A stretch of DNA of 64,000 nucleotides from Burkholderiaceae bacterium (lineage in GTDB: Bacteria > Pseudomonadota > Gammaproteobacteria > Burkholderiales > Burkholderiaceae_E): assembly GCA_027493945.1 (NCBI GenBank), contig JAOSJU010000001.1:682001-746000 (forward strand), read 5' to 3'. This document shows, piece after piece, positions 40,291 through 64,000 of the stretch (its first letter is position 1; every line of letters starts with the position of its first letter). Under the pieces are notes generated by a model. That model had not been told where the DNA came from. It made no database searches and saw only the letters and a program-made list of their open reading frames with translations. A program made the translations under genes and the position numbers.

Positions 40291-40293
40291 GAT

Positions 40294-41374: not shown

Positions 41375-41388
41375 GGGCTTCGAACACC

Positions 41389-41712: not shown

Positions 41713-41732
41713 GCTTGTCCTGCGCTTCGCGC

Positions 41733-42209: not shown

Positions 42210-42238
42210 CGAGAAACAAAACAGGTTGAGGGGCGTTT

Positions 42239-45417: not shown

Positions 45418-45431
45418 ACCTGACACGCAGC

Positions 45432-45447
45432 CTCCGGGCAACCGGAG
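45432..45447. terminator. Hairpin between hydrolase and ABC operon
   Basis: CTCCGG-GCAA-CCGGAG, a 6-bp stem with a GCAA tetraloop, in the 69-base gap between convergent genes. No T-run follows. Confidence 0.45.
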
Positions 45448-45486
45448 CGCCTTCGTGCGCCGGCGCCGATCCGGACAAAGCAGCGA

Positions 45487-47071: not shown

Positions 47072-47087
47072 CGTTCCGGGGCCCCTG

Positions 47088-48122: not shown

Positions 48123-48224
48123 CGTCTCCTCCTGGGTTCGCAATGTTGCGATGCGGGTCACGCTTTCGATCGAACATAGGCGGCTGAAATTTGGATGTCA
48201 ACCGCCCTCGGGGAGATTCCCGTT

Positions 48225-48235
48225 CCATTAAATGG
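48225..48235. promoter_or_regulatory. Candidate IclR operator
   Basis: CCATT-A-AATGG, a perfect 11-base palindrome inside TTCCATTAAATGGTG, lies in the 152-base divergent space between the ABC and iclR genes. IclR proteins bind palindromes of this form. Confidence 0.45.
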
Positions 48236-48274
48236 TGTTCTAATCTCCGAAGTTCACCCATCACGCGATCGCCC

Positions 48275-49198
48275 ATGGACCGGAAAGAGACCCGCACCGT
48301 CGAACGCAAGCACTCCGCCATTCGCAGCCGGCAGACCCCCGGCAAGCGGCCTGCTCTCGAGGGCCGCATCGGACCGCCGACCGCGCCGCGAGGTGCGCCC
48401 GAGCGCACGCTGCGCCTGCTGCAGATCCTGATCGAGGTTCCAGGACCCGCCACGCTCGCGAGCATTGCCCTGGCAAGCGGACTCGAGCCCAATACCGCCC
48501 ATCGCCTGCTCGAGCGACTCGTCGAGACCGGGTATGCACGCAAGTGCGACGCCACGCGGCGCTACAGCGCGGCCGCGCGGGCGCTCTATCCGATGAGCCT
48601 TCACCACCCGTTGAACCGCCTACGCCTCGAGTCCCGCGAGCAGTTGCGCCACCTGCGCGAACGCCACGACCAGAGCGTGTGCCTGATCGTGTTCGTAGGC
48701 CACCAGCGGGTGATCATCGATTTCGTGCCCGGCCGCGAACCGCTGAGCCCACTCTATGGAACGTGGCTCAGCAATCCGCTGAACGCCTCGGCGGCCGGCA
48801 TCGTCCTGTTGAGCAACCTGTCACGCGATGAACGGCGCAAGCTGCTCGGCGACGAGCCATTGCCCGCTCCGACCCCGCATGCGGCCACGACTTACGCCGC
48901 ACTCGAGGCGGAGATCCAAGCACTTGCCTCCCGCGGCTATGCACTGGCCCGGCTGAGCACGTTCATCGGCATCTACGCGGTCGCGGCCCCCATTCGCGGG
49001 CCGCAAGGATTCATCGGCTGCCTTGCCTTCACGGGAAGCGTCCATGGCATCGACGAGGACGTCCTTGCCATGCTGGGCGGGGCGCTGCGCGACGCTGCCA
49101 ACCTGATTTCTGGGGCGCCCCCGTCCATCAAGGCAGTCTCGGATTTCGTCGGGAACCACGCACCCGATGGCGAGACGTACCTGAACGGGAGGATCTGA
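48275..49198 (+). CDS. IclR-family transcriptional regulator
   Basis: 307 residues with a 45-residue basic N-terminal tail, then the winged helix (RTLRLLQILIEVPGPATLASIALASGLEPNTAHRLLERL, in part) and an IclR effector domain (CLIVFVGHQRVIIDFVPG, NASAAGIVLLSNLS). It is divergent from the ABC importer and directly upstream of the alcohol dehydrogenase. Likely controls one or both. Confidence 0.87.
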   Translation: MDRKETRTVERKHSAIRSRQTPGKRPALEGRIGPPTAPRGAPERTLRLLQILIEVPGPATLASIALASGLEPNTAHRLLERLVETGYARKCDATRRYSAAARALYPMSLHHPLNRLRLESREQLRHLRERHDQSVCLIVFVGHQRVIIDFVPGREPLSPLYGTWLSNPLNASAAGIVLLSNLSRDERRKLLGDEPLPAPTPHAATTYAALEAEIQALASRGYALARLSTFIGIYAVAAPIRGPQGFIGCLAFTGSVHGIDEDVLAMLGGALRDAANLISGAPPSIKAVSDFVGNHAPDGETYLNGRI

Positions 49199-50290
49199 AT
49201 GGCGGTCATCCATGGACGAGGCGTCGTCGCCCGGCAGCCCGGATCTCCGGCCGGGGTGGAAGACATCACGATCGAGGACCCGGGCCCGGGCGAGGTTCGG
49301 GTCAAGATGCTGACCAGTGGCGTCTGCCACACCGACCTGTTCGCGAAGGAAGGGAAGTTCGGTGCCGCCTTGCCCTACCTGCTGGGCCATGAAGCGACGG
49401 GTATCGTAGAATCGGTCGGCGACCATGTGAGCCGTCCCACAGCCGGTCAGACAGTTACGCTGTCATGGCGTGCTCCGTGCGGCGTCTGCCGTTTCTGCGT
49501 GCGCGGCGATTCGCAGGTGTGCCCGAGCGCGCTGACTGCCCAGCCGCGCATGAAGACCCACGACGGGATCACGCTCGGCCGCGTGCTGGGGCTGGGCACG
49601 TTCGCCGACTACACGGTCGTCGCTGCGGACCAGGCCATCCCCATGAAGGAGACCCTCGATCCGGCGGCGACCTGCCTTGTCGGCTGCGCCGTCGGCACGG
49701 GCGTTGGCGCTGCGCTCTATTCAGGCAAGGCGACACCGGGTTCGACGGTCGCCGTATTCGGCTGCGGCGCAGTCGGCATTTCGGTGATCCAGGGCGCACG
49801 GATCGCGCACGCCTCCCGCATCATCGGTGTGGACATCGCGCCGTCGAAGCTGGAATGGGCGAAGGCGTTCGGCGCCACCGACACGGTGGACGCAAGAGAG
49901 GGTGACCCTGTCGAAGCGATCAGGATGCTCACCGACGGCCTCGGCGTCGACTTCGCATTCGAAGCGGTCGGTACACCCCAGGCGGTCGAGCAGACGATCG
50001 CGAGTTGCGACATCGCGGGAACGGCGGTCCTGATCGGCGTTCCCGCCCAGAACAGCCAGATCACCCTGCCGCTGGCCAAGTTCTTCTTCAACCGCGGACG
50101 GCTGCGCGCAACGAGCTACGGCGACATCGTCGCCGGGCGCGACTTCCCGCTGTTCGCCTCGCTCTACCAGCGCGGCGATCTCGCCCTGGACAAGATGGTG
50201 TCGGAGCGAATCGGGCTCGACGACGTCGAGGACGCGTTCGCCGCGATGCAGCGGGGTGAGACGATCCGATCGGTCATCGTTTTCGACTGA
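49199..50290 (+). CDS. Zinc-dependent alcohol/formaldehyde-type dehydrogenase
   Basis: 363 residues, medium-chain dehydrogenase. Catalytic zinc ligands are Cys in SGVCHTD and His in LLGHEATG; the structural zinc site is CGVCRFCVRGDSQVC. The Rossmann motif is VFGCGAVGISVIQ and a following Asp (GVDIAPSKLEW) suggests NAD preference. It resembles S-(hydroxymethyl)thiol dehydrogenases, which would fit formaldehyde from demethylation, but that is inference. ATG starts one base after the iclR stop. Confidence 0.85.
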   Translation: MAVIHGRGVVARQPGSPAGVEDITIEDPGPGEVRVKMLTSGVCHTDLFAKEGKFGAALPYLLGHEATGIVESVGDHVSRPTAGQTVTLSWRAPCGVCRFCVRGDSQVCPSALTAQPRMKTHDGITLGRVLGLGTFADYTVVAADQAIPMKETLDPAATCLVGCAVGTGVGAALYSGKATPGSTVAVFGCGAVGISVIQGARIAHASRIIGVDIAPSKLEWAKAFGATDTVDAREGDPVEAIRMLTDGLGVDFAFEAVGTPQAVEQTIASCDIAGTAVLIGVPAQNSQITLPLAKFFFNRGRLRATSYGDIVAGRDFPLFASLYQRGDLALDKMVSERIGLDDVEDAFAAMQRGETIRSVIVFD

Positions 50291-50296
50291 CCCCGG

Positions 50297-50310
50297 TTGA
50301 TATGGATCAA
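50297..50310. promoter_or_regulatory. Perfect FNR/ANR box
   Basis: TTGAT-ATGG-ATCAA matches the FNR/ANR consensus in all ten positions. It begins 7 bases after the dehydrogenase stop and 143 bases before the first gene of the corrinoid operon, so a promoter activated at low oxygen is predicted near 50345. Confidence 0.7.
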
Positions 50311-50374
50311 GCGCATGCGAAGCCGGGACGCGCCTGTCACCTCCTTATCGTCTAAGCTGTTCTCAGCATTCAAC

Positions 50375-50392
50375 TGAATTCATCTGTATTCG
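50375..50392. promoter_or_regulatory. 18-bp operator, copy 2
   Basis: TGAATTCA-TC-TGTATTCG differs from copy 1 only in the two spacer bases and the last base. It lies downstream of the FNR box and 61 bases before the small CxxC gene, in position to block transcription of the corrinoid operon. Confidence 0.65.
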
Positions 50393-50452
50393 TACGGCTC
50401 AGGGCCGGGGTCGCTGCACCCCGCATCGTCGGCCAACCGTGAGGTGTCGCAA

Positions 50453-50656
50453 ATGTTCGGTCTTGCCCGCTCCAAATCCGACCAGCGCGTCGTCCAGAAC
50501 GGGCGCGTTGCCTGTCCCAACCGTGGCGGCGACGTGGACATCGACGTCTGTGCAACCTGCGAATGGCTGCGCGGTATCGACGACGACGGCGGCTTTCGCT
50601 TCGCCCGCTGCCGGATCGACGTGCTCCGGTCGCTTCCCGGTTACCCGCCCTGCTGA
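50453..50656 (+). CDS. Small cysteine-rich (zinc-ribbon-like) protein
   Basis: 67 residues with Cys21, Cys33, Cys36, Cys53 and Cys67; the CPNRGGDVDIDVCATC part looks like half of a metal-binding ribbon. I do not recognise a function. It opens the corrinoid operon, 101 bases before the methyltransferase. ATG 50453 follows a weak AGG; GTG 50444 is also in frame. Confidence 0.6.
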   Translation: MFGLARSKSDQRVVQNGRVACPNRGGDVDIDVCATCEWLRGIDDDGGFRFARCRIDVLRSLPGYPPC

Positions 50657-50757
50657 CGCATCCGCAGACAAGGTGACTCCGCCCGGTCCGGTGCGGCGCA
50701 CGCCCGAAACCGGCGAGCGCGTTCCCGCGTCAGTGCCCATCGTAGGGATGTTCGAAC

Positions 50758-51746
50758 ATGAAAGAGCGCATTCTCGGCGCATTGCGCGGTAAAAGGCAGG
50801 AAGGGCGCCTGGTGTGGGTGCCCACGGTCGGCGTCACCGTCGAGGCGATGAAGCAGGTCGACGCCTCGTGGCCGCAGGCTCACCGCGATCCGCGAAAGCT
50901 CGCGCGACTCGCCGCGTCGACCTTCGAGCTCACCGGCGTCCCGTGCTGCACGGTGCCGTTCTGCCTGACGCTGGAGGGCGAGGCACTCGGATGCCCGGTG
51001 GAATGGGGCTCGCAGGCTACACAGCCGCAGATCATGGAACACCTCGAGTCTTCGTTCGACGACTTCGCGGTACCCGGCGACATCCTCTCGCGCGGACGCA
51101 TCCCGGCACTCCTCGAGGCGATCTCGCTGCTGGCGGCGAGCCAGCGCGACGTCCAGCCGGTCAACATGAAAGTCGTCGGACCCTTGACCCTCGCCTGCAC
51201 GCTGTTCGGCGCCGAGCGCATCCTGCTCGCCACCATCGAGGAGCCCGATGCGGTCAAACGATTGCTGGACGTGCTCGCGCAGTTCGCCATCGAGCTGTCG
51301 CGCGCGGCCATCCAGGCCGGCGCAGACACGATCACGCTCGCGGACCCCGCTGCCAGCGGCGACCTCCTGAGCGCCGATCAGTTCGTCGAGTTCGCGCTGC
51401 CCTACGAGGCCCGGTGTTCGCTACCGTCCCGGTGCCGACCGCACTGCACATTTGCGGTTACACAATCGATCTGATGCCGCACATCGGCGCGACCGGAGCG
51501 CTCGCATTCTCGTTCGAGGAGAAAGTCGAAGTGAAGGATGCACGGCGGCTTCTGGGCGACGTGGTGTCGATCGGCAACGTGGCGCCGGTGCGCACGCTGC
51601 TGAACGGCGACCCCGACGACGTCCTGCGCGAAGCGCGCAAATGTTTCGCCGACGGCGTCGACGTGCTTGCCCCCGGGTGCGCCGTGCCACCATTGACCCG
51701 GCTCGAGAACCTGCGTGCGATGGCCGCCGCTGCGACGACGAACTGA
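50758..51746 (+). CDS. MtaA/CmuA-type cobalamin methyltransferase (one frameshift)
   Basis: Uroporphyrinogen-decarboxylase-fold enzyme (COG0407), about 329 residues joined. Zinc ligands match MtaA: His231 and Cys233 (ALHICGYTID) and Cys308 (APGCAVPP). PTVGVTVEAMKQVDASWPQAH and VPFCLTLEGEALGCPVEWG are typical of the methyl-transferring branch. A missing G near 51412 breaks the frame before VFATVPVP. The family either demethylates a substrate onto a corrinoid (O-demethylases, chloromethane) or moves methyl from corrinoid to a thiol (MtaA). No other methyl donor enzyme is visible, so either role is open. Confidence 0.85.
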
Positions 51747-51753
51747 GCCAGCG

Positions 51754-52445
51754 ATGAGCGACACGACCCCCAGCATGAATGGCGCGCCGGCGAGCGAGCG
51801 AGAGGCGATTCTGGCCGGACTGGCCAACGCCGTCGTGAAGCTCGACCCGGCATTGGCCGCCGAGTTCGCCCAGCGTGCGATCACAACAGGCCCGGACGCC
51901 TACGAGGCGATCAACGACGGCCTCGCCCGGGGCATGACAGTGGTAAGCGGCAAGTTCGAACGCCGCGAGTACTTCGTCCCCGAACTGCTGCGTGCCGCCA
52001 AGGCGATGAACACAGGCATCGGCCTCCTCGAGCCGCATCTGAAGGTCGATGCCGGAATGCACAAAGGGACGGTGGTCATCGCGACGGTCAAAGGCGACAT
52101 TCACCAAATCGGGAAGAACCTGGTGGCATTGATGCTGCGCACGGCCGGCTTCACGGTGCACGACCGGGGGTCAACTGCCCGGTCGAGACGTTCCTAGCCA
52201 AGGCGCGCGAGGAGAACGCCGACATCATCGCGATGTCGGCGCTGATGAGCACGACCATGCTCTACATGGAGACGGTCACCCAGGCGGTGGACAAGGAATC
52301 CATGCGCGGGCAGCTCCGCCTGATGGTCGGCGGAGCGCCGGTGAGCGAGAGCTTCGCCCGGCAAGTCGGCGCCGATGCCCGGGCGAGCCATGCCGCGATG
52401 GCCGTGGACGTGGCCAGGGGACTGGTGGCGCAAAAGGCCCGGTAG
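51754..52445 (+). CDS. Methyl-carrying corrinoid protein (one frameshift)
   Basis: About 230 residues joined, MtaC/MtmC type. An N-terminal helical cap (about 20-100) is followed by the B12-binding domain with GDIHQIGKN, where His117 is the cobalt ligand, then SALMSTT and GGAPVSE. A missing T in a CCTGG near 52170 breaks the frame (GVNCPVETF follows). It shuttles the methyl group between two methyltransferases. Confidence 0.9.
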
Positions 52446-54263
52446 TGGGTCTCACCATTCTTCCCCAGGGGCTCACGGTCGACGTCGACCCCGGCGTCAC
52501 CGTGCTCGAAGCCTGCCGGCAGCACGACATCGACCTGCCGGGCATCTGCGGCGGACGCGGTCGGTGCCGGGAATGCCGCGTCATCGTCGTCGACGGCGAA
52601 GCCGCGCCCAGTGCGCTGGATCACTCGCTGCTCGAGCCTGGAGACGTGGCGCGCGGCTGGAGGTTGTCTTGCCAGCTGCAGGTCGACACCCCACTGACGA
52701 TCGAACTGCCGCCGGTCTCGCTGAAGCTGCTCGATCCGGCCGTTGTGCTGCCTCAGCTTGCCTCGATCGAACCAGTCATCCAGGACGTGACGGTGGATCT
52801 CTCCGGCACGCCGGCGGACAGTGATCGCGCGGCAGTCGAGCTGCTCGACGACGCGCTCGAGGCGAGCGGCGTTGCGGTTCGCCGCTCGTCGGTGGCGGCA
52901 TTGCGCGGGCTTGGGCTCGCGCTGGCTCGACACGAGACCGTACTGCGCTGCCTGGTGCATGACCACATGCTGCTCGACGTGCGCCCGCGATCTTCGTCGC
53001 CCCTCCTGTACGGCCTGGCCATCGACATCGGCACGAGCACGGTGTCGATGGCGCTGCTCGACCTCGCCGATCGCGCGATGCTGTCGGTCGAGACCGAGCG
53101 CAATCCGCAGGGCGCGTACGGCGGCGACTTCATGTCGCGTATCGCCTTCGCCATGGAGAAGGACGACAACCTGCGCGAGCTGCAGCGCAAGATCGTCAGC
53201 GGCGTCAACAGGATGGTCGAGCGGCTGCTGTCGAGCTACGGCATCGCGCGGCACGATATCGCCCTCGTCACCGTCGTCGGCAATCCGGTCATGCACCATT
53301 TGTTTCTCGGGCTCGACGTCAAGACACTCGGCGGCTTTCCGTTCCGTCCGGTGCTCGATGCGCGGATGACGGTTCCTGCGGCCGAGCTCGCGCTGCGGCT
53401 CGAGCCGGCGACACCCGTCGTCAACCTGCCCCTGATCTCCGGCTATATCGGCGCCGACGCGGTCGGGGTGGCGATTGCCCTCGACCTGCTCGGCCGGTCG
53501 GACACCGCGATGGCCGTCGACGTGGGTACCAACGCCGAGGTTGCGCTCGTCCACCGTGGACGTCTGTATGTGTGCTCGGCGCCGGCTGGTCCGGCGTTCG
53601 AGGGCGCACAGATGGCCTGCGGCACACAGGCGCGCCCCGGAGCGATCACCAGGATCGCGATCGACGAGGCGCGCCAGCAGCTACGTCTCGACACGGTGGA
53701 CGAGAAGCCGCCGTTCGGCATCGCCGGTACGGGTATCGTCGATGCGGTGGCGGAGCTCGTTCGGGTCGGCGTACTCGATGCGTCCGGGTTCATGCGTGAC
53801 ACCATGCATTGGCCGGCGTGGTTGCGCGAACGCGCGCATGCCGCAGGGGAGATGCGGGCCTTCGTCGTCGCACGCGACGCGGAAGGCCGGCCGCTCTATC
53901 TGCACCAGGGCGACGTCCGCGAGCTGCAGCTTGCGAAGGCAGCCACTGCGGCCGCGATCCACTATGTGATGCACGCGGCCGGAATCCGTGCTGCCGACCT
54001 CGACCATGTGTACGTCGCGGGCGCCTTTGGCAGCTATCTCGATCCGGTCAGCGTCCTGCGGATCGGACTGCTGCCCGACGTGCCGCTTCGAGCGCGTCGA
54101 GTTCGTCGGCAACGCGGCATTGGCCGGCGCGGTTCTGGCGACGTTGTCGCGCCGGCATCTCGAAGCGGCGGTGCGGGTGGCACGCGAGGCCGTGCGGGTC
54201 GACATGGCGACCGACGAATCCTTCCAGGAGGTGTTCGTCGACAAACTCCGCCTGGCCCACTAG
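52445..54263 (+). CDS. RACo-type corrinoid reactivating ATPase (one frameshift)
   Basis: About 605 residues joined. The N-terminal [2Fe-2S] domain has Cys35, Cys41 and Cys44 (CGGRGRCREC) and a fourth in RLSCQ. The ASKHA ATPase domain starts at GLAIDIGTSTVSMALLDLA and includes AVDVGTNAEVALV, CSAPAGPAFEGAQM and VAGAFGSYLDP. RACo reduces inactive Co(II) corrinoid to Co(I) with ATP. An extra T near 54086 (CGCTTCGAG) breaks the frame before ERVEFVGNAALAG. The GTG start overlaps the corrinoid gene stop. Its TAG stop lies in the target site of the following IS701 element. Confidence 0.9.
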
Positions 54264-55745
54264 TCATACTGTGTTAATAAAATCAGTCTACTATACGCGC
54301 ATCTTCAAGTGCAAGGTGCGAAGCGATGGACGAACTTGGCGAGCTCCAGCGATACATGGCGCATCTGAGTGAAGCGCTGGGTCACGCCGACCGGCATGCG
54401 GGGTTGCGCGGGTACTGTGCGGGGCTGATGTCGCCGCTGGCCCGAAAGAGCGTCGAGCCGATGGCCGCGGCGGTCGATCCGCAGCATGTTCGTTCTCGTC
54501 ATCAGTCGCTGCACCATTTCGTGGCGGATTCGGACTGGTCCGACGAGGCGCTGCGGCTGCGGGTGGCGCAATGGGTGGTGCCGCGGATGGACTTCTCCGA
54601 CGGCGGCTGGTGGATCATCGACGACACCGGCTTTCCGAAGGCGGGTCGTCATTCGGTGGGCGTGGCGCGCCAGTACTGCGGGATGCTGGGCAAGCAGGAC
54701 AATTGCCGGTAGCGGTGAGCGTGTCGCTCGCCTGTGAGGCAGCGAGCCTGCCGGTGGCCTGGCGGCTGTATCTGCCCGGGGAGTGGGCCGAGGACGAGGT
54801 CCGGCGCCGCAAGGCCGGCGTACCGGCCGAGATCGAGTTCGCGACCAAGCCGAACATCGCCCCGGGGCAGATCGAAGATCTGCTTGCGCAGGGCGCACCG
54901 CGCCATACGGTGCTGGCCGATGCGGGCTACGGGGTGGACACGGCGTTTCGCGAGCGGCTCACTGAACTGGGGCTGGCCTATGTGGCAGGCATCACCGGCA
55001 GTGTGACGGTCTGGGCGCCGCCGCGAGAACCCTTGGCGCCCGGGACCGACGCCGCGCGCGGGCCGCAGGGCAGGCGCTTGCGCCGGGGCCGGGCCGGCGA
55101 CGAGCAGCACCGCCCGCAATCGGTCAAGGAGGTCGCGCTCGCGCTCTCGCCGCTGGCCTGGTACCGGGCCAGTTGGCGTGAGGGCACGAACCAGACGCTG
55201 CGCTCGCGCTTTGCACGGCTCAGGGTACGAGCCGCGCATCGGGACCATCTGCGCAACGAACCACGCCCGCCCGAGTGGCTGCTCATCGAGTGGCCCGAGG
55301 ACGAAGCCGAGCCGACCAAGTACTGGCTCTCGACGCTGCCCGAGGCCGTAGCGCTTTCGAGCGCATGGTGTATGAAGCGAAGATGCGCTGGCGCATCGAG
55401 CGCGACTACCAGGAACTCAAGCAGGACCTGGGGCTGGGCCACTACGAGGGCCGAGGCTGGCGAGGATTCCATCACCATGCGAGCCTGAGCATCGCCGCCT
55501 ACGGATTCCTGCTTGGGCAGCGACTCAGCTATCCCGAGCAGGCCCGGGCAGAAAAAAAACGCCACTTCGCCGAGGAACCTGCCGTACCCACGCATTACGT
55601 CCCTCGAGGCGCCCCGCCGGGCGCAGCGCCACGTCCCCTGGTCGATCACGAGTTTGCGGCTGCGTATCGGCGCGCTGCTACTTCGTAGCTTCGCCCGATG
55701 TCCGTGCTGCTTCCAGGCCACGAGGCATTTATTAACACAGTATGA
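54264..55745 (+). mobile_element. IS701-family insertion sequence
   Basis: 1,482 bases with perfect 18-bp terminal inverted repeats (TCATACTGTGTTAATAAA at 54264-54281 and its complement at 55728-55745). It is flanked by a CTAG duplication (54260-54263 and 55746-55749), the 4-bp YTAR target typical of IS701. It is inserted at the stop codon of the RACo gene, separating it from the following two genes of the same pathway. Confidence 0.93.
54326..55688 (+). CDS. IS701-family transposase (two frameshifts)
   Basis: About 454 residues joined. DDE residues: Asp in [10 protein letters not shown], Asp in VLADAGYG and Glu in [22 protein letters not shown]. The first break is a missing A in a CCAGG near 54708 (giving a false stop after GKQDNC); the second is near 55347 in a T run. 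If both are sequencing errors, the transposase is intact. Confidence 0.85.
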
Positions 55746-55774
55746 CTAGGGTCAGACCTTCGAGCGGCAACCGG

Positions 55775-56434
55775 ATGCAGTGCATGGCCGCCGACGTGCA
55801 CGAACCCGCGCGACTGCGCGACCTGCCGGTCTCGGTTCGCGCCGAGCAGATCCTTCGGGCGCACTATCCCGACCTTGCCCGGGTAGCGCAGGGCGTTCGT
55901 ATGATCGCCGCGGCGATGGCTGCGCACGCACTCGAGGTCGCTGTCCCCGTGGCGTGGTTCCGCGAAGTGTCCATCCGCGAGGTCGGCGATGGATGCGTCG
56001 AACTCGAACCAGGCCTCATGCTCACCGGCACGGCACTTGCGGCCGCGCTGCGGGGCGCCCAGACAGCGACGCTGTTCGTGGTGACGATCGGGCCGCGGCT
56101 CGACGAGCGCGTGACCGAACTCTTCGAGGCGATGGACGGCGTGGAAGGTCTGTTCCTCGACACTGCGGGATGGGTGCTCGTGCAGTCGGCACTCAGCGCC
56201 GTGCGCCAGCGAATCGGCGCTCGTGCACGCGCTGGAAATCTTCGCGTGACGCGACGTCTCGGCCCCGGCTACTCGGACTGGCCACTGGAGCAAGCGACGA
56301 TGGTCATCGCCGCGCTCGCCGCCGGCGGGCAACTCCCAGGCATCGAGGTGCTGGAAAGCGGCGCCATCCTTCCGGAAAAGACGCTCATCGGACTCTATGG
56401 CCTCGTTCCGCTGGCCGGCGCCAGCAAGGAGTGA
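55775..56434 (+). CDS. MetH-activation-domain-like protein
   Basis: 219 residues. The C-terminal part has RLGPGYSDWPLEQ and ESGAILPEKTLIGLYG, which match the SAM-binding region of the B12-dependent methionine synthase activation domain. It is a free-standing version, as also seen in anaerobes that lack a full MetH. Possible role: reactivating or handling the corrinoid protein with SAM. ATG 55775 is used because an ATG at 55742 is inside the IS701 end; 55784 is also possible. Confidence 0.8.
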   Translation: MQCMAADVHEPARLRDLPVSVRAEQILRAHYPDLARVAQGVRMIAAAMAAHALEVAVPVAWFREVSIREVGDGCVELEPGLMLTGTALAAALRGAQTATLFVVTIGPRLDERVTELFEAMDGVEGLFLDTAGWVLVQSALSAVRQRIGARARAGNLRVTRRLGPGYSDWPLEQATMVIAALAAGGQLPGIEVLESGAILPEKTLIGLYGLVPLAGASKE

Positions 56435-56437
56435 AAA

Positions 56438-57430
56438 ATGCAGCAACGAGAGATTTTCCTCGAGCGCCTCGCGCGCGCCGACCAGCGCCCGATCCTTGCG
56501 GACAGCGCGACAGGCACTTGGTTCCAGAACCGCGTCGAGGACGAACCAGGCGCCTGCTGTGACGGCTACAACCTGACGCGGCCCGATGCCGTGCGGCAGA
56601 TGTATCGCGAGAAGCTCGAAGCGGGCGCCGAACTGGTCCTCACGAACACGTTCAACAGTTGCGTTCTGCGGCTGCCCGAGTTCGGTATCGACGCCGCCGA
56701 GGCTGATCGGCTCAACATCGAGGGCGTGCGGTTGCTGCGCCAGGCGATGGTCGACACCGGACGACACTGCTTCATCGGCGGAGATGTCGGCCCGACCGGC
56801 CTCATCGTGGGCGAGACTGGGACGTATCCCGACATACGTGACAGTTTCGCGCGCCAGATCCGCGCCCTCGTCCAGGCGGGCGTAGACGTGATCTGCGTCG
56901 AAACCCTGCTGCAGGCGCTGGAGGGACAGGCTGCCGCCGAGGCTGCACACGAGGTATTCGCCAAGGAGGGCGTGCAGCTTCCGTTGTACATGACAGTCGT
57001 GTTCACGGACCTCGCGCCCGGCCAGAGCGAGCACCGTACGTTCTTCGGCGATTCGGTGGCGGAGATGCTCGACGGCAAGCATGACGCGCTCGCCCAGCAG
57101 CACTTCGACGGCATGCTCGCACTCGGGTGCACGGTAATCGGGGCGAACTGCTCGGTAGGGCTGGACGACATGATCCCGATCGCGGCGCGCTTCCGGCAGC
57201 ACATCGACGCCCGCGGGCTCGCCGGCAAGGTGTTCGTGGCGGCGAAGCCGAACTCAGCCGTGATGTCGAGCCAGTCCTACGAGGGCCCCGATGTCGCCGT
57301 GGCACGGCTCCCGGCGCTGGTTCGCGCGGGCGCCCACGTCATCGGTTACTGCTGCGGCTCCTTGCCGGAGCACATCCGCGCCACCTCCGATGCACTGCAC
57401 AGGATTGCGGAGTCGCCCGCGCAGCGGTAG
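56438..57430 (+). CDS. Homocysteine S-methyltransferase-domain protein
   Basis: 330 residues, like the N-terminal module of MetH or BHMT. Zinc ligands Cys238 (GANCSVG), Cys305 and Cys306 (GYCCGS) match MetH. It should transfer methyl from the corrinoid protein to homocysteine, giving methionine, and would act as the second methyltransferase of the operon. It follows the activation-domain gene by 3 bases. Methyl donor is inferred from context. Confidence 0.85.
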   Translation: MQQREIFLERLARADQRPILADSATGTWFQNRVEDEPGACCDGYNLTRPDAVRQMYREKLEAGAELVLTNTFNSCVLRLPEFGIDAAEADRLNIEGVRLLRQAMVDTGRHCFIGGDVGPTGLIVGETGTYPDIRDSFARQIRALVQAGVDVICVETLLQALEGQAAAEAAHEVFAKEGVQLPLYMTVVFTDLAPGQSEHRTFFGDSVAEMLDGKHDALAQQHFDGMLALGCTVIGANCSVGLDDMIPIAARFRQHIDARGLAGKVFVAAKPNSAVMSSQSYEGPDVAVARLPALVRAGAHVIGYCCGSLPEHIRATSDALHRIAESPAQR

Positions 57431-57507
57431 TCGATACTCGCCGACCTGTGCTTCGTTTCTCGTGCCCATGAATACCGACCATGCACCCGTGCCTGCAGTA
57501 GTCCTCC

Positions 57508-57867
57508 GTGGCGGCAGTATCCGGGGAACGCGATGCGACGATCACGCGACTCGCCGAGCCGGAAGCTGCAGGTCGCCCGACCGCCGTCCTGCGCCTTGGA
57601 AGCGGCGTGTTTGGCAGCCAGTCGCTGCCGCTGACGCCGCACATCGTGATCAAGCAGGCCACGATCGGCTGCCCATGCTGCACCTCCACGGTCCTCTTTC
57701 GCATTGCCCTGGTGAAACTCCTGCGAACAAACCGGCCGGCACGCCTGATCATCGACCTGGGAGCGGGCGATCATGTGGCGGTGCTGGAGATGCAGCTGAA
57801 AGGCGAATCGCTTTGTCGCGTCGTGCGGATCGTCGACAGTGTCGACCTCGATACGGGCGGCCGATAG
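57508..57867 (+). CDS. Short CxCC protein resembling part of CobW/P47K GTPases
   Basis: 119 residues. TIGCPCCTSTVLFRIALVKLLRTNRPARLIID resembles the metal-binding GCxCC and following helix of CobW-family chaperones, but no Walker A motif or other GTPase motifs exist here. It could be a remnant or a minimal metal-binding protein. A stop lies shortly before the GTG start at 57508. Weak call. Confidence 0.45.
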   Translation: MAAVSGERDATITRLAEPEAAGRPTAVLRLGSGVFGSQSLPLTPHIVIKQATIGCPCCTSTVLFRIALVKLLRTNRPARLIIDLGAGDHVAVLEMQLKGESLCRVVRIVDSVDLDTGGR

Positions 57868-57924
57868 CATCGCCCTTGTCCGGCAACCTGCCGCCGCATC
57901 GACCGGCTCGCGGCGTGTCCGCCG

Positions 57925-58892
57925 TCAATCGACCCGTACCCCGGCCGTCTTCACCACCCCGGCCCACTTCTTCAGCTCCGAATCGACGAATCGCGCAAAT
58001 TCTCCGGGCGTGTTCGTCTCGACGTCGAGACCTTGCGCAACGAGTCGTTCGCGCACATCCGGCATGCGCAGAACGCTCCCGATTTCGGCACTGAGTCTCT
58101 GGACGATCGGGGCAGGAACTCCGGCGGGTGCGAAGAACCCGAGCCAGCCGATCACCTCGAAGCCCTGGCAATGCGGCCTCTGCGATCGTCGGAACATCCG
58201 GAAGCGCGCGCGACCGCTCCGCGCTGGTTACCGCGAGCGCTCTAAGCTTGCCGGCCTTGATATGCGGAAGGGATGCGGGGATGGCGTCGATCATCAGATG
58301 GACCCTTCCAGCCAGAAGATCCGCCATGGCCGGAGGACTACCCTTGTACGGAACGTGCATCATGTCGATCCCCGCCAGGGAGCTGAAAAGCACGGTGGAC
58401 AAGTGTCCCGAGGTCCCGTTGCCGAAGGAAGCGTAGTTCAGCTCTCCCGGCCGGGACCTGGCCAGGGAGATCAGTTCATCGACGGAATGTGCCGGCACCG
58501 AGGGGTGCACCTCGAGAACCAGCGGGGGTGGTTGCGGCGATCGTGATGGGAACGAAATCCCTGACCGGGTCATACGGCAGGCGTCGATAGAGGCTCGGAT
58601 TGATGCCATGCGTGGTGAGCCCGCCAAGGAGGATCGTGTACCCGTCTGGCGCCGACTTTGCCACGGCCTCGGCAGCGATGTTTCCGCTGGCACCCGGGCG
58701 ATTCTCGACGATCACGGGCTGGCCCCAGCTTTGGCGCAGCTTGTCCCCGACCGACCTGCCCAGGACGTCGGCCGCACCGCCGGCAGGAAAGATGACGACG
58801 ATGCGAATCGGCTTCTCGGGATAGCGTTGTGCCCGAACGTCGTGCACACCCAGGAGCACCATCGCCGCAAGTAGCGCGAAGGCGACCATGCG
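57925..58892 (-). CDS. Bug/TctC-family periplasmic binding protein (two frameshifts)
   Basis: About 321 residues joined, the normal size. A signal peptide (MVAFALLAAMVLLGVHDVRA) is followed by QRYPEKPIRIVVIFPAGGAAD, NRPGASGNIAAEAVAKSAPDGYT, GELNYASFGNGTSGH and HVPYKGSPPAMADLLAGRV, all Bug hallmarks. An extra C in a C run near 58528 and an extra G after CCAGG near 58168 break the frame. Bug proteins bind carboxylates or other small molecules. Upstream bases 58893-59072 keep the same frame and look like the start of another Bug protein. Confidence 0.85.
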
Positions 58893-59072
58893 ACTGACTC
58901 TCGCTCGGCCCGGAGCGAGTCCTCTGGACGACAAAAGCGACTCAACCGGGCGGTCGGGATATCCATCGTCGGTCGCGGCAGCCACCGTCAGGGGCATGTT
59001 GCCGGCGATGCCCGCACTCGCCATCGCGAGGACCGAACCTGTCCGGGTCAAGGACTTGCGGCGATCCACCAT
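58893..59072 (-). pseudogene. N-terminal remnant of a second Bug protein, in frame
   Basis: From an ATG at 59072 with a good AGGAGA site the frame reads MVDRRKSLTRTGSVLAMASAG, an export-like leader ending TVAAA, then DDGYPDRPV, the usual start of a mature Bug protein, and then runs on into the full gene. It looks as if two tctC-type genes recombined. The leader could supply translation for the full protein, but the second signal peptide would then be internal. Confidence 0.5.
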
Positions 59073-59110
59073 CGTCGTCTCCTGTTTTCGAACATAAGAT
59101 AGCTTTTAGT

Positions 59111-59124
59111 ATTAGTATACTAAT
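59111..59124. promoter_or_regulatory. Candidate TetR operator
   Basis: ATTAGTATACTAAT, a perfect 14-bp palindrome in an AT-rich patch between the divergent Bug and tetR genes. It is the right size and place for TetR-family autoregulation. Confidence 0.55.
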
Positions 59125-59244
59125 TGTAATTGACCAAAATTCGCTCGGTGTGTTGTTCCGGAAATTCGCAGATTGGAAGCCCTGAGAATTCTTGCGGCAA
59201 CGTCAGCTTCTGGCGGGCCCACGTTGGCATATGGCGCAGGTGAA

Positions 59245-59928
59245 ATGATGACGACCATGATTCAGGATGAGAGGCTGCAGGAATTGCGGCAGTGGATCGA
59301 TCAGGGGCACCTGCCAGAGGTCGCCCCCACCCGTCAGGAACGAAGTCTCCGAAGTGCCCTGGCCATGGTCGATGCGGGCCGGGAGATCATTCGCAAAAGC
59401 ACGTTCGCCGACCTGTCGGTCGAAGCCGTCTGTGACATGGCTGGCGTCACCGTCGGCAGTTTCTATTGCCGATTCCAGAGCAAGGAAAGCTTCTTCATCA
59501 CGCTGCAGCGACTGCAGACGTTCAGATCACAGGCAAAGCTGGCCGAGGTCATACGCCGTCACGGCAGCAGCAACTCGAACGTCGACGATCTCGTGGAAGA
59601 CATGGTGTCGCTACTGGTCAGCCAGTTTCGAGAGAACGTCGGAATGATGCGGGCGTCGTTGCAGCGCACGAAGGAAGGCATGTGGCAGGTCATCAAGGCG
59701 TCCGGCGACAGGCACCGTACCGAGTTCGCGAATGCCATGGTGCCGCTGCTGCCGTTACCCGAGGCGACGGCTCGCATGCGCGCCCTGTTTGCCTTCCAGG
59801 CACTTGCGGGCGTCCTCGTCCACGCGGTTCTGAACAACCCCGGACCGCTGGATCTCGAACATGAATCACTGATTCCCGAACTGAATCGCCTGCTGAAGTC
59901 CTACCTCTTCCCTGGTTCGCGCCATTGA
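59245..59928 (+). CDS. TetR-family transcriptional regulator
   Basis: 227 residues. The HTH lies at about 45-90: IIRKSTFADLSVEAVCDMAGVTVGSFYCRFQSKESFF. The ligand domain is unclassified. ATG 59245 has AGGTGA upstream. Divergent from the Bug gene and 160 bases before the Fe-S operon. Confidence 0.85.
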   Translation: MMTTMIQDERLQELRQWIDQGHLPEVAPTRQERSLRSALAMVDAGREIIRKSTFADLSVEAVCDMAGVTVGSFYCRFQSKESFFITLQRLQTFRSQAKLAEVIRRHGSSNSNVDDLVEDMVSLLVSQFRENVGMMRASLQRTKEGMWQVIKASGDRHRTEFANAMVPLLPLPEATARMRALFAFQALAGVLVHAVLNNPGPLDLEHESLIPELNRLLKSYLFPGSRH

Positions 59929-60009
59929 TGATGCGTCGTGCCGAATCGGGCCCAACCCTGCTCGATTCCGCGACGCCCCTTCCGCTCCCGGTTCAGTCAG
60001 GATACACTT

Positions 60010-60027
60010 TGCATTCACATGGATTCA
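60010..60027. promoter_or_regulatory. 18-bp operator, copy 3
   Basis: TGCATTCA-CA-TGGATTCA fits the consensus of copies 1 and 2 with two changes. It starts 2 bases after GGATACACT, a -10-like element also seen near copy 1, and 62 bases before the Fe-S gene. Position suits repression of the operon. Confidence 0.6.
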
Positions 60028-60088
60028 TTTAAATCGATAGCCGCGACCACCGGCAATGCCTTGCACCCGAACCGGAGCAGGAATCGTC

Positions 60089-61404
60089 ATGCACGTTGAT
60101 CTGTCGCCGGAACGGCTCGTATTCCCGGGCCGCGGCGAAGAGCACAGTTCTCTCGGCCAATGCATGGAGTGCGGTTTCTGCACGATCCGATGCCCGACTT
60201 TCGTCGTGCTGCGCGACGAGGGCGACAGCCCGCGAGGCCGGGTGCGAATCGCCGGGCAGATCCTCGAGCAGGGCGAACGCCCGTCGCGCAAGGCGCTCGA
60301 CCACCGGATCGCTGCCTGTCCTGTCTGTCGTGCACCAGCAGCTGTCCATATGGGGTCGACCACTCGGGGCTCTGGGATGCCGCACGCGCTGCGATCGAGA
60401 CGCGGAAGGTGCGCCCGCTCCCCGAGCGTCTCTGGCGGCGCACCATGGCGCGCACGCTGAGTTCGCCGCGGCTGTTCGCCACCGGAATGTCGGCGGCTTC
60501 CCTCGGCCGTGTCATGCGACCGATTCTTCCCGGAAGGCTGCGGCGCATGGTGGACCAGGCGCCGCGAACGCCTCCGGCCCCGAGCCCCGTCGCACGGCCG
60601 CGCGTCTATCCTGCCGAAGGCGAGCGGCGCAAGCGCGTGGCGCTGCTTTCCGGATGCGTTCAGCAGGTGCTCGGCGCATCGATCGACGCTGCGACGATCC
60701 GCCTGCTCACGCGGCACGGCTGCGAGGTCGTCGTTGCCGAAGGCGGTGGCTGCTGCGGAGCGGTCCCGCTGCACCTGGGCTTCGAGCATGCAGCGCGTGA
60801 ACATGCGAAGGCCAACATCGCGGCGTGGCTGCGCGCCGACGCCTCCAGCGGCATCGACGCGATCGTGATCAACGCGTCCGGTTGCGGCTCGACGGTGAAG
60901 GACTACGGCCGGATTCTCGCCGATGATCCACAGTGGGCCGACGAGGCGCGCCGCGTCGCGGCGATGACGATGGACGTCACCGAGCTCCTCTCCGACCTGC
61001 CGCTCCGGCTCACGAGAGAGGTCGATCGCATGCACGTGGCACTGCACCTGCCTTGCTCGATGCAACACGGCCAGGGTATCTCGATCGCTCCGCGCCGGCT
61101 GCTCGACGAGGCCGGCTTCGAGGTGAGCCTGGCACCCGAGAGCCACATGTGCTGCGGGGCGGCTGGAACCTACAACCTCATGCAACCGGTCATCTCGGAC
61201 CAGCTCGGCCAGCGCAAGGCGCAGGCACTCGAAAGTACGGGCGCCAAGGTGGTAGCGACCGGGAACATGGGCTGCATGCTGCACATCGGGCGCCTCGGTG
61301 CCCTGCCGGTCGTGCATACGGTTGAACTGCTCGATTGGGCCACCGGCGGCGAGATGCCCGCACGCCTGCGATCGCCCGGCGATCAGAAAGGCGGGGCCGC
61401 ATGA
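60089..61404 (+). CDS. GlcF/HdrD-like iron-sulfur protein with CCG domains (one frameshift)
   Basis: About 438 residues joined. Two [4Fe-4S] motifs come first (CMECGFCTIRCP and, after the break, CLSCLSCTSSCP), then two CCG domains with GGGCCGAVPLH and SHMCCGAAGTYNLMQ. A missing T in a CCTGG near 60318 breaks the frame. GlcF is normally with GlcD and GlcE, which are absent. In this operon it may pass electrons to or from the ferredoxin encoded next, perhaps to the corrinoid reactivator; that is inference. Confidence 0.85.
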
Positions 61405-61886
61405 AGCTTCATTTCACGAGCCGCCGGTTCAAGGGCGAGAGCTTCGATCCGCGGCAATGCCAGCCGGACGAACTCGTCATGCTGGTCGATCTCGATCGTT
61501 GCATCGGCTGCGGTGCCTGCGCGCTCGCCTGCGAGATCGAGCACGAAGGGGCATTGGGCGCCGGAGAGCCGATGCGTCCGATCCTCGCAGCGGCGAGCCC
61601 GGAGGCGCGCATGGTGTGCCTGCCGCTCACCTGCCGGCACTGCGAGACGCCGTGCGAATACCACAGCGCCTACAATTTCTGGGTGATGTGTCCTTCACAG
61701 CAGACACGCATCGCGACGCACGCGTTCTGCGACTCTTGCGCCCAGCGCGTGGGTGAAGATCTGTACCCGGCATGCGCGATGCGTTGCACGATGAAGACCA
61801 TCTACTTCGGCCGCCCTGCCGAAATGGCGCTGGTCCTCGCCGAAAAGCGGCTGCACGAGAAGGGCGACATGGAGTTCGAGGGCTGA
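61401..61886 (+). CDS. Dicluster 4Fe-4S ferredoxin
   Basis: 161 residues. CIGCGACALACEIEH, CRHCETPCEY and CDSCAQRV...CAMRC resemble the electron-transfer subunits of molybdenum oxidoreductases, with several [4Fe-4S] sites. ATG overlaps the previous stop (ATGA). Likely partner of the GlcF-like protein. Confidence 0.85.
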   Translation: MKLHFTSRRFKGESFDPRQCQPDELVMLVDLDRCIGCGACALACEIEHEGALGAGEPMRPILAAASPEARMVCLPLTCRHCETPCEYHSAYNFWVMCPSQQTRIATHAFCDSCAQRVGEDLYPACAMRCTMKTIYFGRPAEMALVLAEKRLHEKGDMEFEG

Positions 61887-61887
61887 C

Positions 61888-62622
61888 GTGGGCGCGAACC
61901 TCGCATACGAGTGGACGGCCGCCGACTATCGGCGCCTCGCGCGGCCGAACGACCTGGTGACCTTCGAGCTGCGCGTGAAGCAGACTGACATGCGGGTGTC
62001 AGCCGAAGCCGACCTGAGGGCCGAGGCGCTTGCGCTCGTCCTCGAAGCGCGCGCCCAGGTCGAGCGTCGCATCGCCCGCTGCCCCGAGTTCCTGCGGTCG
62101 CTGGTTCCGCTCGACGACGATCGTTCGGCCCCCGCCGTCATCGCGGCCATGCTCGACGCTGCGCGGCGCGCCAACGTTGGTCCCATGGCGGCGGTCGCGG
62201 GCGCGATCGCCGAGTTCGTCGGTCGAGGGCTCGGCACGAAAAGCCCCGAAGTAATCGTCGAGAACGGCGGCGATCTCTATCTGAGCTCGCGCCATCGGCG
62301 CGAGCTCACGCTGCTCGCGGAGAACACCGCGTTCGGCGGCATACGCATCACGGTCCCGCCCGCACCGGAGGGCGCAGGAATCGCGACATCGGCAGGGACG
62401 CTGGGCCATTCGCTGAGCTTCGGCAATGCGGACGCCGTGATGGTGGTCGCCGAGAGCGGCGCCCTGGCCGACGCACTGGCCACCGCGATCGGCAACATCG
62501 TGCAGCGCGAGGCTGATCTCGCGCCGGCACTCGCCCGCGCGCGCTCGATGGGTGCGCGCGCGGCGGTCATCGTCGCCGACGGACACCTCGCCGCCTTTGG
62601 CGACATCGAACTCACCGGATAG
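61888..62622 (+). CDS. UPF0280 family protein (COG2122)
   Basis: 244 residues of the ApbE-related fold. Motifs: GPMAAVAGAIAEFVG, ENGGDLYL and GIATSAGTLGHSLSFGNADAV. In Methanosarcina the COG2122 protein is needed for homocysteine synthesis together with DUF39. The GTG start follows the ferredoxin stop by 1 base. Its presence with a DUF39 gene repeats the archaeal pairing. Confidence 0.88.
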   Translation: MGANLAYEWTAADYRRLARPNDLVTFELRVKQTDMRVSAEADLRAEALALVLEARAQVERRIARCPEFLRSLVPLDDDRSAPAVIAAMLDAARRANVGPMAAVAGAIAEFVGRGLGTKSPEVIVENGGDLYLSSRHRRELTLLAENTAFGGIRITVPPAPEGAGIATSAGTLGHSLSFGNADAVMVVAESGALADALATAIGNIVQREADLAPALARARSMGARAAVIVADGHLAAFGDIELTG

Positions 62623-62635
62623 AGGAGCATTGTCC

Positions 62636-63936
62636 GTGCCCGCCCAGCGATCGATCGCGGAAATCAACGAGCGCCTCGCCCGGGGAGACGCGGTCGTGAT
62701 GACTGCCATGGAGTTCAAGCAGGAGGTCCGCAACGGCCGCCGGTTCAGGCTGGGCGATGTCGACGTCGTCACCACCGCCACGCGGGCGGTGATGTCGGGG
62801 ACTTCGGCCATCCTGGGCGTGCCGCTCGACAGCGGCGATCCGGCACGCCGCATCTGGGTCAACGGCCTGCCGTGCCTCGTCGCCGAGCAGGGCGACGGGC
62901 AGGTCGACGTCGTGGTCCAGGGGACCGCGGAGAGCAGGGACTTCCCGAACGGCTACGGCGGTGGCCACCTGCTGCGCGACCTGGTGTCCGGCAAGACCGC
63001 CGACGTCGAATGGGAGTCCGCCGACGGACGCACTCATCACCGGACGACGTCGCTGAAGGAGTTGCCCTTCGCACGGATCTACAGCTTCCGCAACGCGTAC
63101 CGCAACTACAGCGCGTTCACGAACGCCCGCAACCGCCGCTCCTACCGCGAGCATCCGAACACGATCTTCGCCAACCGGGCGCTGCCCTGGATGAAGGCCC
63201 TCACCGTCAGCGGCAGCGGCGAGCTCAATCCGCTCGAGAACGACCCGGAAGGACGCGTCATCCACCCCGGCACGCGCGTCCTCGTGAACAAGGCCGAGGG
63301 CGTGGTGATCGGCTCGGGCACGCGCGCCTCGCGCCATGGACCGAACCTTTCGCTCGCGGCCGACCTGCGCGGCATGGATCCGGAGTTCATGGGAGGGTTC
63401 AAGACGCGACACGGGATGGAGATCACCAACAGCGTCGCGATCCCGATTCCTGTGCTCGACGAAAGCGTCCTCGAGCGACTCTCGCAGGTTCTCGACGAGA
63501 ATGTCGAGATGGACATTGCTGACCTCGCCGACCGGGTTCCGTTCACCCGGGCGACCTACGCGGATGTCTGGGACGGCGCGGCGCTGTGGGTGGACTTCGA
63601 CGGCGACCGTTGCATCGTCTGTTCGTTCCAGTGTCCGGCGGAGTACTTCTGCCCGATGGGTGCGATCTCGTGGCGCGAGAAGCGCATCGACCAGACGCTT
63701 TGCGTCGCCTGCGGTGCGTGTACGGCGAACTGCCCGGGGGCGCCTTCTCTGGGCGGGGGCATGCGCCGCAGGGGCGGATCGGCGAACTTGCGATCGGCAA
63801 TCGCACGATGCCGATCACCTACCGTCTTTCGAACCGGAGACGCGTCATCGAACTCGCAGCCTACCTCAAGGAAAAACTGACTGAGCGCAGCTTCTTCCTC
63901 GCCGACGCCGGGCTGCCGCTCGAACTCACGCCATGA
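62636..63936 (+). CDS. DUF39 (COG1900) homocysteine-synthesis-like protein with ferredoxin tail (one frameshift)
   Basis: About 433 residues joined. The DUF39 core shows GDVDVVTTATRAVMSGTSAILG, YGGGHLLRDLVSGKTADVE, NAYRNYSAFTN, SGSGELNPLENDPE and GTRVLVNKAEGVVIGSGT. Two [4Fe-4S] sites follow (CIVCSFQCPAEYFCP and CVACGACTANCP). A missing G in a G run near 63738 breaks the frame before GAFSGRGHAPQGRIG. Canonical members have a Cys where TRAVMSGTS and GRTHHRTT stand here, so the catalysis may differ. GTG start 62636 with GAGGAG in front. Confidence 0.82.
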
Positions 63937-64000
63937 CCGCGATCCCGTTCGACCTTTCGCGTTTCGGGCTTTCGTTGCCCCCCTTCGGCGCACCCGCCGC
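63933..64000 (+). CDS. Start of an unidentified gene (3' partial)
   Basis: ATG overlaps the DUF39 stop (ATGA); 22 residues are visible, beginning MTAIPFDLSRFGLSLPPFG. Coupled translation puts it in the operon. Too short to identify. Confidence 0.5.
   Translation, partial: MTAIPFDLSRFGLSLPPFGAPA

Follow-up and report, generated by a model that had tools for sequence, protein, structure and literature searches.

The 64,000-nucleotide stretch analysed here (the window, G000:C1:682001-746000; G labels denote genomes, L labels DNA stretches, and G000 is the genome of the window, a Burkholderiaceae bacterium) carries a genomic island on which a corrinoid methyl-transfer gene set stands together with a set around the protein families COG1900 and COG2122. 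We propose, at a probability of roughly 0.55, that this island encodes the uptake and breakdown of coenzyme M (CoM, 2-mercaptoethanesulfonate), probably including methyl-CoM. Judged from sequence, the thiol handled by the COG1900 side is most likely CoM, because the COG1900 protein there belongs to the CoM-synthase type and because relatives of that protein adjoin sulfoacetaldehyde enzymes and a sulfonate-type importer; breakdown, not synthesis, is the most likely direction. The original prediction for this DNA had joined genes for an MtaA-like methyltransferase, a corrinoid protein, RACo, a MetH-activation-like protein, and a homocysteine methyltransferase to genes for a GlcF-like protein, a ferredoxin, COG2122, and COG1900. 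All of these genes were found in their places by profiles or PDB sequence matches. The set proved larger than listed, however, as it also includes an importer (45505-48161) and, past the window end, a second COG1900 gene and a molybdopterin oxidoreductase gene.

In the proposed pathway, the sulfonate-type ABC importer would bring in CoM or methyl-CoM. MtaA would transfer the methyl group of methyl-CoM to the cob(I)alamin of the corrinoid protein, reversing the known MtaA reaction, and the homocysteine methyltransferase would pass it on to homocysteine, yielding methionine; methyl exchange from one thioether to another should be nearly energy-neutral. RACo and the MetH-reactivation-like protein would rescue oxidised corrinoid. 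Free CoM would be converted by the two COG1900 proteins (COG1900d and COG1900b) and COG2122 into sulfoacetaldehyde, sulfide, and two electrons, which is the CoM-synthase reaction run backwards, and ferredoxin, molybdoenzyme, and GlcF/CCG protein would carry the electrons away, with quinone as a possible acceptor. Xsc would split sulfoacetaldehyde into sulfite and acetyl phosphate, the latter serving Pta or acetate kinase. We infer the substrate, the direction, the electron route, and the joint action from the observed families, motifs, island, gene order, and co-occurrence.

At somewhat under even odds, we further suggest a dedicated bacterial pathway for eating CoM and methyl-CoM, composed of a reversed MtaA/corrinoid system that in the window would hand the methyl group directly to homocysteine, a reversed CoM synthase, and a sulfoacetaldehyde trunk; the pathway would be native to a small number of anaerobic Desulfobacterota and would have been carried by an island into a proteobacterium of another phylum, with a methanogen cofactor as food and sulfur source. 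Methanogens make CoM, and their death must set it free; in the open-access literature, judged by title and start of abstract and with subscription papers and preprints outside the search, no paper on its bacterial breakdown was found. If the proposal is true, a gap in the organic sulfur cycle would be closed, the COG1900 family would gain a catabolic branch, MtaA-type proteins in bacteria without methanogenesis would be partly explained, and enzymes removing a methanogen cofactor would be on offer.

Sequence comparison places the window COG1900 protein in the CoM-synthase (marker-16) type and not in the homocysteine type. It scored 343.9 bits over positions 1-346 of the 391 positions of TIGR03287 (methanogenesis marker 16; cutoff 363.95), the last 45 positions being encoded in another frame. 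Its relatives scored 396, 399, 415, 416, 378, and 362.7 bits, the last just below the cutoff. In the order of G926, 36 of 39 genomes matched TIGR03287 at E <= 1e-30; three proteins reached 362.7-399.1 bits, and the others listed reached at most 136.2. In the tree, the window protein grouped with L063, L036, L095, and L096 (the proteins of G926, G534, G1228, and G1237; support 96/97), four COG1900b proteins grouped together (100/99), and 17 homocysteine-type proteins were separated from every marker-16, COG1900b, and Lokiarchaeota row (100/100). The seven operon-type proteins formed one clade in 34% of bootstrap trees, with G562 and G686 branching apart and long branches flagged. A nine-row alignment of the MMP16-type proteins placed the ferredoxin part within COG1900 and left no length for a CBS part (CBS itself was not scanned). 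The marker-16 protein is described in PMC12068725 as the main CoM synthase in Methanosarcina, where it swaps the aldehyde of sulfoacetaldehyde for a thiol.

Both gene sets co-occur outside the window in one genome, G926, and since they lie there in one co-directional run, the earlier idea that they belong together is probably right. The G926 locus, though a single case, speaks against the refuting case named with the original prediction, namely that the two sets never occur together elsewhere. This run, on contig C240, comprises genes for Xsc, a molybdoenzyme, a ferredoxin, COG2122, the marker-16 protein, a CCG protein, COG1900b, a substrate-binding protein (SBP), a permease, two ATPases, MtaA, a corrinoid protein, UroD2, a thioredoxin-like protein (named by eye; no NCBIfam match), a G3E GTPase, a MetH-reactivation-like protein, RACo, and acetate kinase, and the gaps between its genes range from -28 to 157 bases, five of the gene starts having been assigned by hand. 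Xsc scored 753 bits with NF005713 (cutoff 620) and 668 against a cutoff of 676 with TIGR03457, its first 54 positions being lost at the contig end; MtaA scored 311 bits (NF004889, subfamily cutoff 244) and acetate kinase 435 bits (cutoff 293). Fifteen of the 19 genes of the run were matched in the island or at its edge by 14 genes, one ATPase answering both. Besides the values in Table 1, the G926 proteins were matched by the window MtaA pieces at 33/43% identity, by the corrinoid protein at 48% and 35%, by RACo at 31% (a match that stops at 54085), and by the MetH-reactivation-like protein at 27% (E 1.4e-7).

Searching with the window COG1900 protein returned three relatives, namely that of the Desulfobacteraceae metagenome-assembled genome L036 (56%) and two of Lokiarchaeota (36%); this search was built on patterns from one protein and reaches close relatives only. 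The marker-16 type was found in 4 of 395 genomes of the phylum of L036, and together with the scan of the order of G926 six Desulfobacterota carriers were obtained: G534 (the genome of L036), G562, G686, G926, G1228, and G1237. COG2122 lies 5' of the marker-16 gene in the five contigs reaching that far, a CCG protein follows it in all six, COG1900b is present in four (G534, G926, G1228, and G1237), and the importer occurs in all three contigs reaching past COG1900b (G534, G926, and G1228). Recurring partners in the Desulfobacterota are COG2122, ferredoxin, molybdoenzyme, second COG1900, and CCG protein. In G534, a SauS-like acylating sulfoacetaldehyde dehydrogenase (594.1 bits over 4-464 of 464 positions; cutoff 600) directly follows COG1900b and is followed by the importer. 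As two unrelated enzymes acting on sulfoacetaldehyde, Xsc and SauS, sit in such runs of two lineages, sulfoacetaldehyde is the compound that the COG1900 unit would handle. In the two Lokiarchaeota stretches, the marker-16 gene (L037 7924-13970; L038 10001-16005, 477.5 bits, above the cutoff) stands beside genes for an acetolactate-synthase-like thiamine pyrophosphate enzyme, a short-chain dehydrogenase/reductase, and a class III aminotransferase, an arrangement by which Asgard archaea might make CoM starting from a sulfonated amino acid.

On the corrinoid side, the two frame pieces of the window MtaA scored 188.3 and 96.4 bits with NF004889, covering positions 5-225 and 231-335 of 340 (cutoff 244, neither piece alone above it), and the first piece matched the MtaA structure 4ay7 in the PDB (E 1.1e-39). 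The protein contains LHICG...APGC, which fits the H-x-C ... C pattern that we take to be the MtaA zinc site; roles are presumed in the same way for ANCSVG...GYCCGS of the homocysteine methyltransferase and DIHQIG of the corrinoid protein. In the tree, it falls in the MtaA clade with the G926 MtaA and two G534 MtaA proteins (100/99). A strict orthology of the window and G926 MtaA proteins was considered and is not supported by the tree. The MetH-reactivation-like protein was matched by neither a Pfam (E 0.001) nor an NCBIfam model (E 0.1). No MtaB was seen in the island, and none of the neighbours examined pointed to demethylation of methoxyaromatics, quaternary amines, or halomethanes. Among 399 genomes of the order of the window genome, 59 matched NF004889 at E <= 1e-25 and two (G1056 and G994) exceeded the cutoff. 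In L147 (G1056), whose MtaA/corrinoid protein/RACo set lies at 9369-14215, an MtrH-like gene comes next (207 bits, cutoff 259); the second such set lies at L148 6931-10808, and such sets would serve corrinoid-dependent demethylation.

The window importer is, by sequence similarity, the own type of this COG1900 operon and appears to belong to the same system as the corrinoid and COG1900 sets. Its ATPase was 46-55% identical to the relatives' operon ATPases versus 40% to TauB and 33% to SsuB of Escherichia coli, and its permease 50-55% to the operon permeases (57% in the G926 comparison) versus 34% to TauC and 28% to SsuC. The SBP scored 196-211 bits to the operon SBPs versus 54 (TauA) and 52 (SsuA), with 33% identity to the G926 SBP.

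Elsewhere in G000, Xsc is present in two pieces (656 and 401 bits, each alone under 676) with 59/45% identity to the G926 Xsc, and Pta is also present. At L093 4841-15185, genes for a TRAP transporter (assigned by eye), an FAD oxidoreductase, and Pta lie near Xsc; this region is probably a second, taurine-like sulfonate route. ComA gave no match in the five COG1900b carriers G000, G534, G926, G1228, and G1237, a search made in partly incomplete assemblies and not extended to other routes to sulfoacetaldehyde. The breakdown direction is favoured by the importer, by the occurrence of Xsc together with acetate kinase in the run of G926, and by this lack of a ComA match. ComA-family proteins were observed in two other carriers, five in G562 and one in G686 (L113-L118), whose marker-16 operons show neither an importer nor COG1900b over the viewed stretch. 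Whether they could mark CoM-making genomes was considered; by eye, the genes around them seem to have nothing to do with CoM, and no conclusion was drawn.

Several observations weigh against CoM breakdown. The window COG1900 protein is under the TIGR03287 cutoff (344 versus 364), for which the frame break may be the cause. The cysteines apparently equivalent to archaeal Cys95 and Cys202 (Methanosarcina acetivorans), an equivalence of columns drawn through the Lokiarchaeota rows, are absent in seven of seven bacterial rows, one of which has a cysteine one column off; a shifted cysteine (NGxxC) occurs in all five rows of the window's COG1900 clade, and Cys200/202 are reported in PMC12068725 as not required. 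The window GlcF-like protein is only 25% identical to the operon CCG protein of G926. The window MtaA has as nearest neighbour a methanol-type MtaA of G534 (36% identity, 92/89), the G926 MtaA is under the stricter equivalog model (315 versus 400), and bacterial MtaA-type proteins may have acceptors other than CoM. MtaA is near the COG1900 set in two of seven genomes (window and G926), the contigs of G686, G1228, and G1237 being too short to show it; none was seen in the 16 kb viewed of G562, and the gene next to the G534 importer, where MtaA was looked for, matches neither MtaA nor any G926 protein. The MtaA genes of G534 sit on contigs other than that of its COG1900 set, one of them next to a gene that looks MtaB-like by eye, and G534 shows no Xsc match at E <= 1e-60. 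In G000, Xsc lies 0.27 Mb from the island and acetate kinase just outside its right edge. Neither the window nor L004 nor L093 gave a match (E 1e-5) to UroD2, the thioredoxin-like protein, or the G3E GTPase of G926, and the G926 run is without a homocysteine methyltransferase.

The main rival, which we regard as unlikely, is CoM biosynthesis, in which an imported or taurine-derived sulfonate would be turned via sulfoacetaldehyde into CoM by the COG1900 complex and MtaA would use CoM as methyl acceptor in a corrinoid pathway. Synthesis is the only direction demonstrated for the marker-16 family (PMC12068725). With Xsc near a transporter and an oxidoreductase, G000 probably already makes sulfoacetaldehyde from another sulfonate, and the SauS of G534 could give it from sulfoacetyl-CoA. 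However, Xsc and acetate kinase in the same G926 run would drain the precursor, G926 has no apparent use for CoM, the ComA result stands against it, and the importer and the molybdoenzyme/CCG redox set are not known as needs of the archaeal synthase. Ranking below it, and also unlikely, is the view that a corrinoid demethylase making methionine from some methyl donor and a COG1900 sulfonate-thiol operon share the island but have no common function. The two sets are separated by a TetR gene and a reversed receptor gene, MtaA, corrinoid protein, and RACo occur in G1056 and G994, whose 20-kb stretches examined show no COG1900 (the MtrH-like gene being present in G1056), and the MtaA evidence from G534 and the tree given above would fit separate modules. 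Against this are the single co-directional G926 run with its short gaps and the fact that the MtaA and MMP16 families are known to act on the same thiol.

It is improbable, though conceivable, that the COG1900 set makes or breaks down a different sulfonated or C2/C3 thiol, the aldehyde being sulfoacetaldehyde or a near analogue; the cysteine pattern unlike that of the archaeal-type rows and SBP scores under the SsuA_fam cutoff would agree with this, but the Xsc and SauS families present in the operons are assigned to sulfoacetaldehyde. A thiol handled by the COG1900 side remains the likely link between the two sets. For the thiol that the original prediction had the module itself make, both compound and direction were probably wrong; the importer, Xsc, and acetate kinase of G926 favour breakdown. 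COG1900 with COG2122 is readily taken as homocysteine synthesis, and the genes had been called homocysteine-synthesis-like on that pattern. Homocysteine synthesis from aspartate semialdehyde, feeding the local methionine-forming methyl transfer, is very improbable. A homocysteine methyltransferase does belong to the set, and COG2122 has a part in homocysteine formation in Desulfovibrio (PMC5764234), but here it accompanies the marker-16 type of COG1900. The hypothesis was rejected on the TIGR03287 scores, the tree, and the neighbours, which include sulfoacetaldehyde enzymes and a sulfonate-type importer; in addition, the protein is too short to include a CBS part, inspection by eye showed no NIL/ferredoxin gene (no profile search for one was made), and G926 holds two separate homocysteine-type COG1900 proteins.

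Compared with known systems, the window set resembles the MMP16/ComF CoM synthase of methanogens (COG1900d) in family, in the ferredoxin part within COG1900, and in having no room for a CBS domain. The bacterial operon differs in adding molybdoenzyme, ferredoxin, CCG protein, and COG2122 (plus a second COG1900 in operons of the importer type), in lacking the archaeal-type conserved cysteines, and in the adjoining importer and Xsc or SauS of G926 and G534. HcyS (L-aspartate semialdehyde sulfurtransferase, COG1900a with NIL/ferredoxin and COG2122) shares the COG1900 family and the COG2122 partner, whereas homocysteine-type proteins reach at most 136 bits to TIGR03287 among the matches listed and form a separate clade. 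With the MtaA/MtaC methylcobamide:CoM methyltransferase system, the island shares the 4ay7 match, the zinc motif, the corrinoid protein, and RACo; it differs in its MetH-type homocysteine methyltransferase as acceptor side and in a direction that is probably reversed. Split MetH forms likewise have separate genes for the homocysteine domain, the corrinoid protein, and a reactivation-like protein. A split MetH as the full explanation, the other refuting case named with the original prediction, was nevertheless rejected: no pterin-binding domain was found in the island (a MetH profile at E <= 1e-20 gave only the homocysteine domain, positions 39-321), MtaA stands in its place, and a full-length MetH lies elsewhere (G000:C1:2073450-2077114). 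Degradation of taurine, isethionate, or sulfoacetate via sulfoacetaldehyde (Xsc, SauS) shares the sulfonate-type importer, Xsc, and Pta and acetate kinase downstream; the proposed entry is through a thiol and COG1900 enzymes, not an amine, alcohol, or acid.

The gene block on the island was apparently acquired. At the island site, the genus-mates G013, G008, and G014 have just 53, 37, and 49 bases, respectively, in alignments whose main flanks are 79-93% identical to G000, and the GC content of the island is 66.1% versus 70.8% and 69.8% in the flanks. None of 17 genus-mates searched gave a full-length marker-16 match (only the three named were aligned at the site). TIGR03287 was matched at E <= 0.001 by 122 of 150 relatives, of which, among the matches listed, all but G000 cover the ferredoxin part only, the best E-value of any relative not falling below 6e-7. 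In the order or phylum of G000, TIGR03287 was found in 1 of 399 genomes and PF01837 in 1 of 398 (samples that may overlap), each time G000 itself. A plasmid search gave no match. Contamination was considered and is unlikely, the whole set being carried on one island within a contig of 3.73 Mb that is syntenic with the genus-mates to either side of the island.

The assembly of G000 (4.28 Mb, four contigs, 88.8% complete) contains many broken frames. In the island, MtaA, the corrinoid protein, COG1900, the GlcF 5' end, the ABC ATPase, and the molybdoenzyme are split over two frames. Among the 13 island genes having a G926 homologue, six are split (MtaA, corrinoid protein, COG1900, molybdoenzyme, ATPase, and CCG protein), as read from the G926 match table with RACo taken as whole (7/13 if the RACo end is shifted). 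Of 28 open reading frames sampled from G013, 22 had a match at >75% identity in G000, eight of them split (the other six were left uncounted), and the two rates do not differ (Fisher p 0.72). MetH is in three frame pieces in G000 and whole in three genus-mates. Broken frames are an assembly-wide feature of G000, and decay of the island into pseudogenes is not supported: because its split rate matches that of the core genes and MetH is split too, nothing hints at decay over and above assembly errors, while single island genes may have decayed.

Table 1 Features of the island and its right edge. Positions without prefix refer to the window; L004 is the G000 stretch reaching beyond the window end, and L004:8858 lies about 4.9 kb past that end.
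Feature	Position	Strand	Evidence and remarks
Genomic island	39473..64000, on to L004:8858 (~29.4 kb in all)	.	Genus-mate alignment and GC
ABC transporter ATPase	45505..46208	-	Two frames, break near 45630; 48% to G926 ATPase 1, 55% to an L036 ATPase
ABC transporter permease, sulfonate/taurine type	46229..47071	-	BPD_transp_1
Importer SBP	47088..48161	-	NMT1; SsuA_fam 107 bits, cutoff 163.5
IclR-type regulator	48191..49198	+	By eye
Zn-dependent alcohol dehydrogenase, S-(hydroxymethyl)mycothiol dehydrogenase-like	49199..50290	+	TIGR03451 404.6 bits, cutoff 512.9
MtaA-type methylcobamide:thiol methyltransferase (UroD-type)	50758..51746	+	Two frames, break near 51410-51432
Corrinoid protein, MtaC/MetH type	51715..52443	+	Two frames, break near 52165; B12-binding_2 and B12-binding
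RACo, corrinoid reductive activator	52445..54277	+	RACo_C_ter, Raco_middle, Fer2; C-terminal end probably in another frame
Insertion sequence transposase, frameshifted	54326..55688	+	By eye; between RACo and MetH-reactivation-like gene
MetH-reactivation-like protein	55742..56434	+	Best PDB match 1j6r (METHIONINE SYNTHASE), E 3.6e-11
Homocysteine S-methyltransferase, MetH N-terminal type	56438..57430	+	S-methyl_trans E 4.6e-42; best PDB matches methionine synthase
Bug/TTT-type solute receptor, frameshifted	57749..59072	-	By eye
TetR-type regulator	59173..59928	+	TetR_N and TetR_C_15
GlcF-like CCG iron-sulfur protein	60056..61404	+	PRK11274 GlcF 326.6 bits, cutoff 333; CCG; 5' end in another frame
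DmsB-like ferredoxin	61401..61886	+	Fer4; 49% to G926 ferredoxin
COG2122/UPF0280 protein	61888..62622	+	NF003323 (presumably the UPF0280/COG2122 model) E 3.2e-72, 242.9 bits, cutoff 271; 52% to G926
COG1900d protein, marker-16/CoM-synthase type, with ferredoxin domain	62618..63936	+	Frame break near 63740; 56% and 44% to G926
Second COG1900 protein (COG1900b), no ferredoxin domain	63933..64000, L004:3933-4883	+	PF01837; 34% to G926 COG1900b
Molybdopterin oxidoreductase	L004:4887-7032	+	Follows COG1900b; 50% and 41% to G926 in two frame pieces
Acetate kinase	L004:8850-9935		36% to G926 acetate kinase

Within the G000 COG1900b gene, a Gly-Ser repeat run at L004 4293-4334 is absent from the three aligned relatives and may be a low-complexity insertion or an assembly artefact. 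To the left of the importer, the island also holds an apparently oxygen-dependent unit (40253-44402) with a fatty-acid-desaturase-type oxygenase (PF00487), a Rieske-type ferredoxin, and a Fer2/NAD reductase, the last two assigned by eye except for NAD_binding_1 at 43932-44402. This reductase is cut by an IS110-like transposase on the minus strand (about 42239-43700, by eye), and a GntR regulator adjoins. At the left end of the importer, a MetX-like alpha/beta hydrolase (44251-45417) scored 438.7 bits with PRK07581, above the cutoff of 332.

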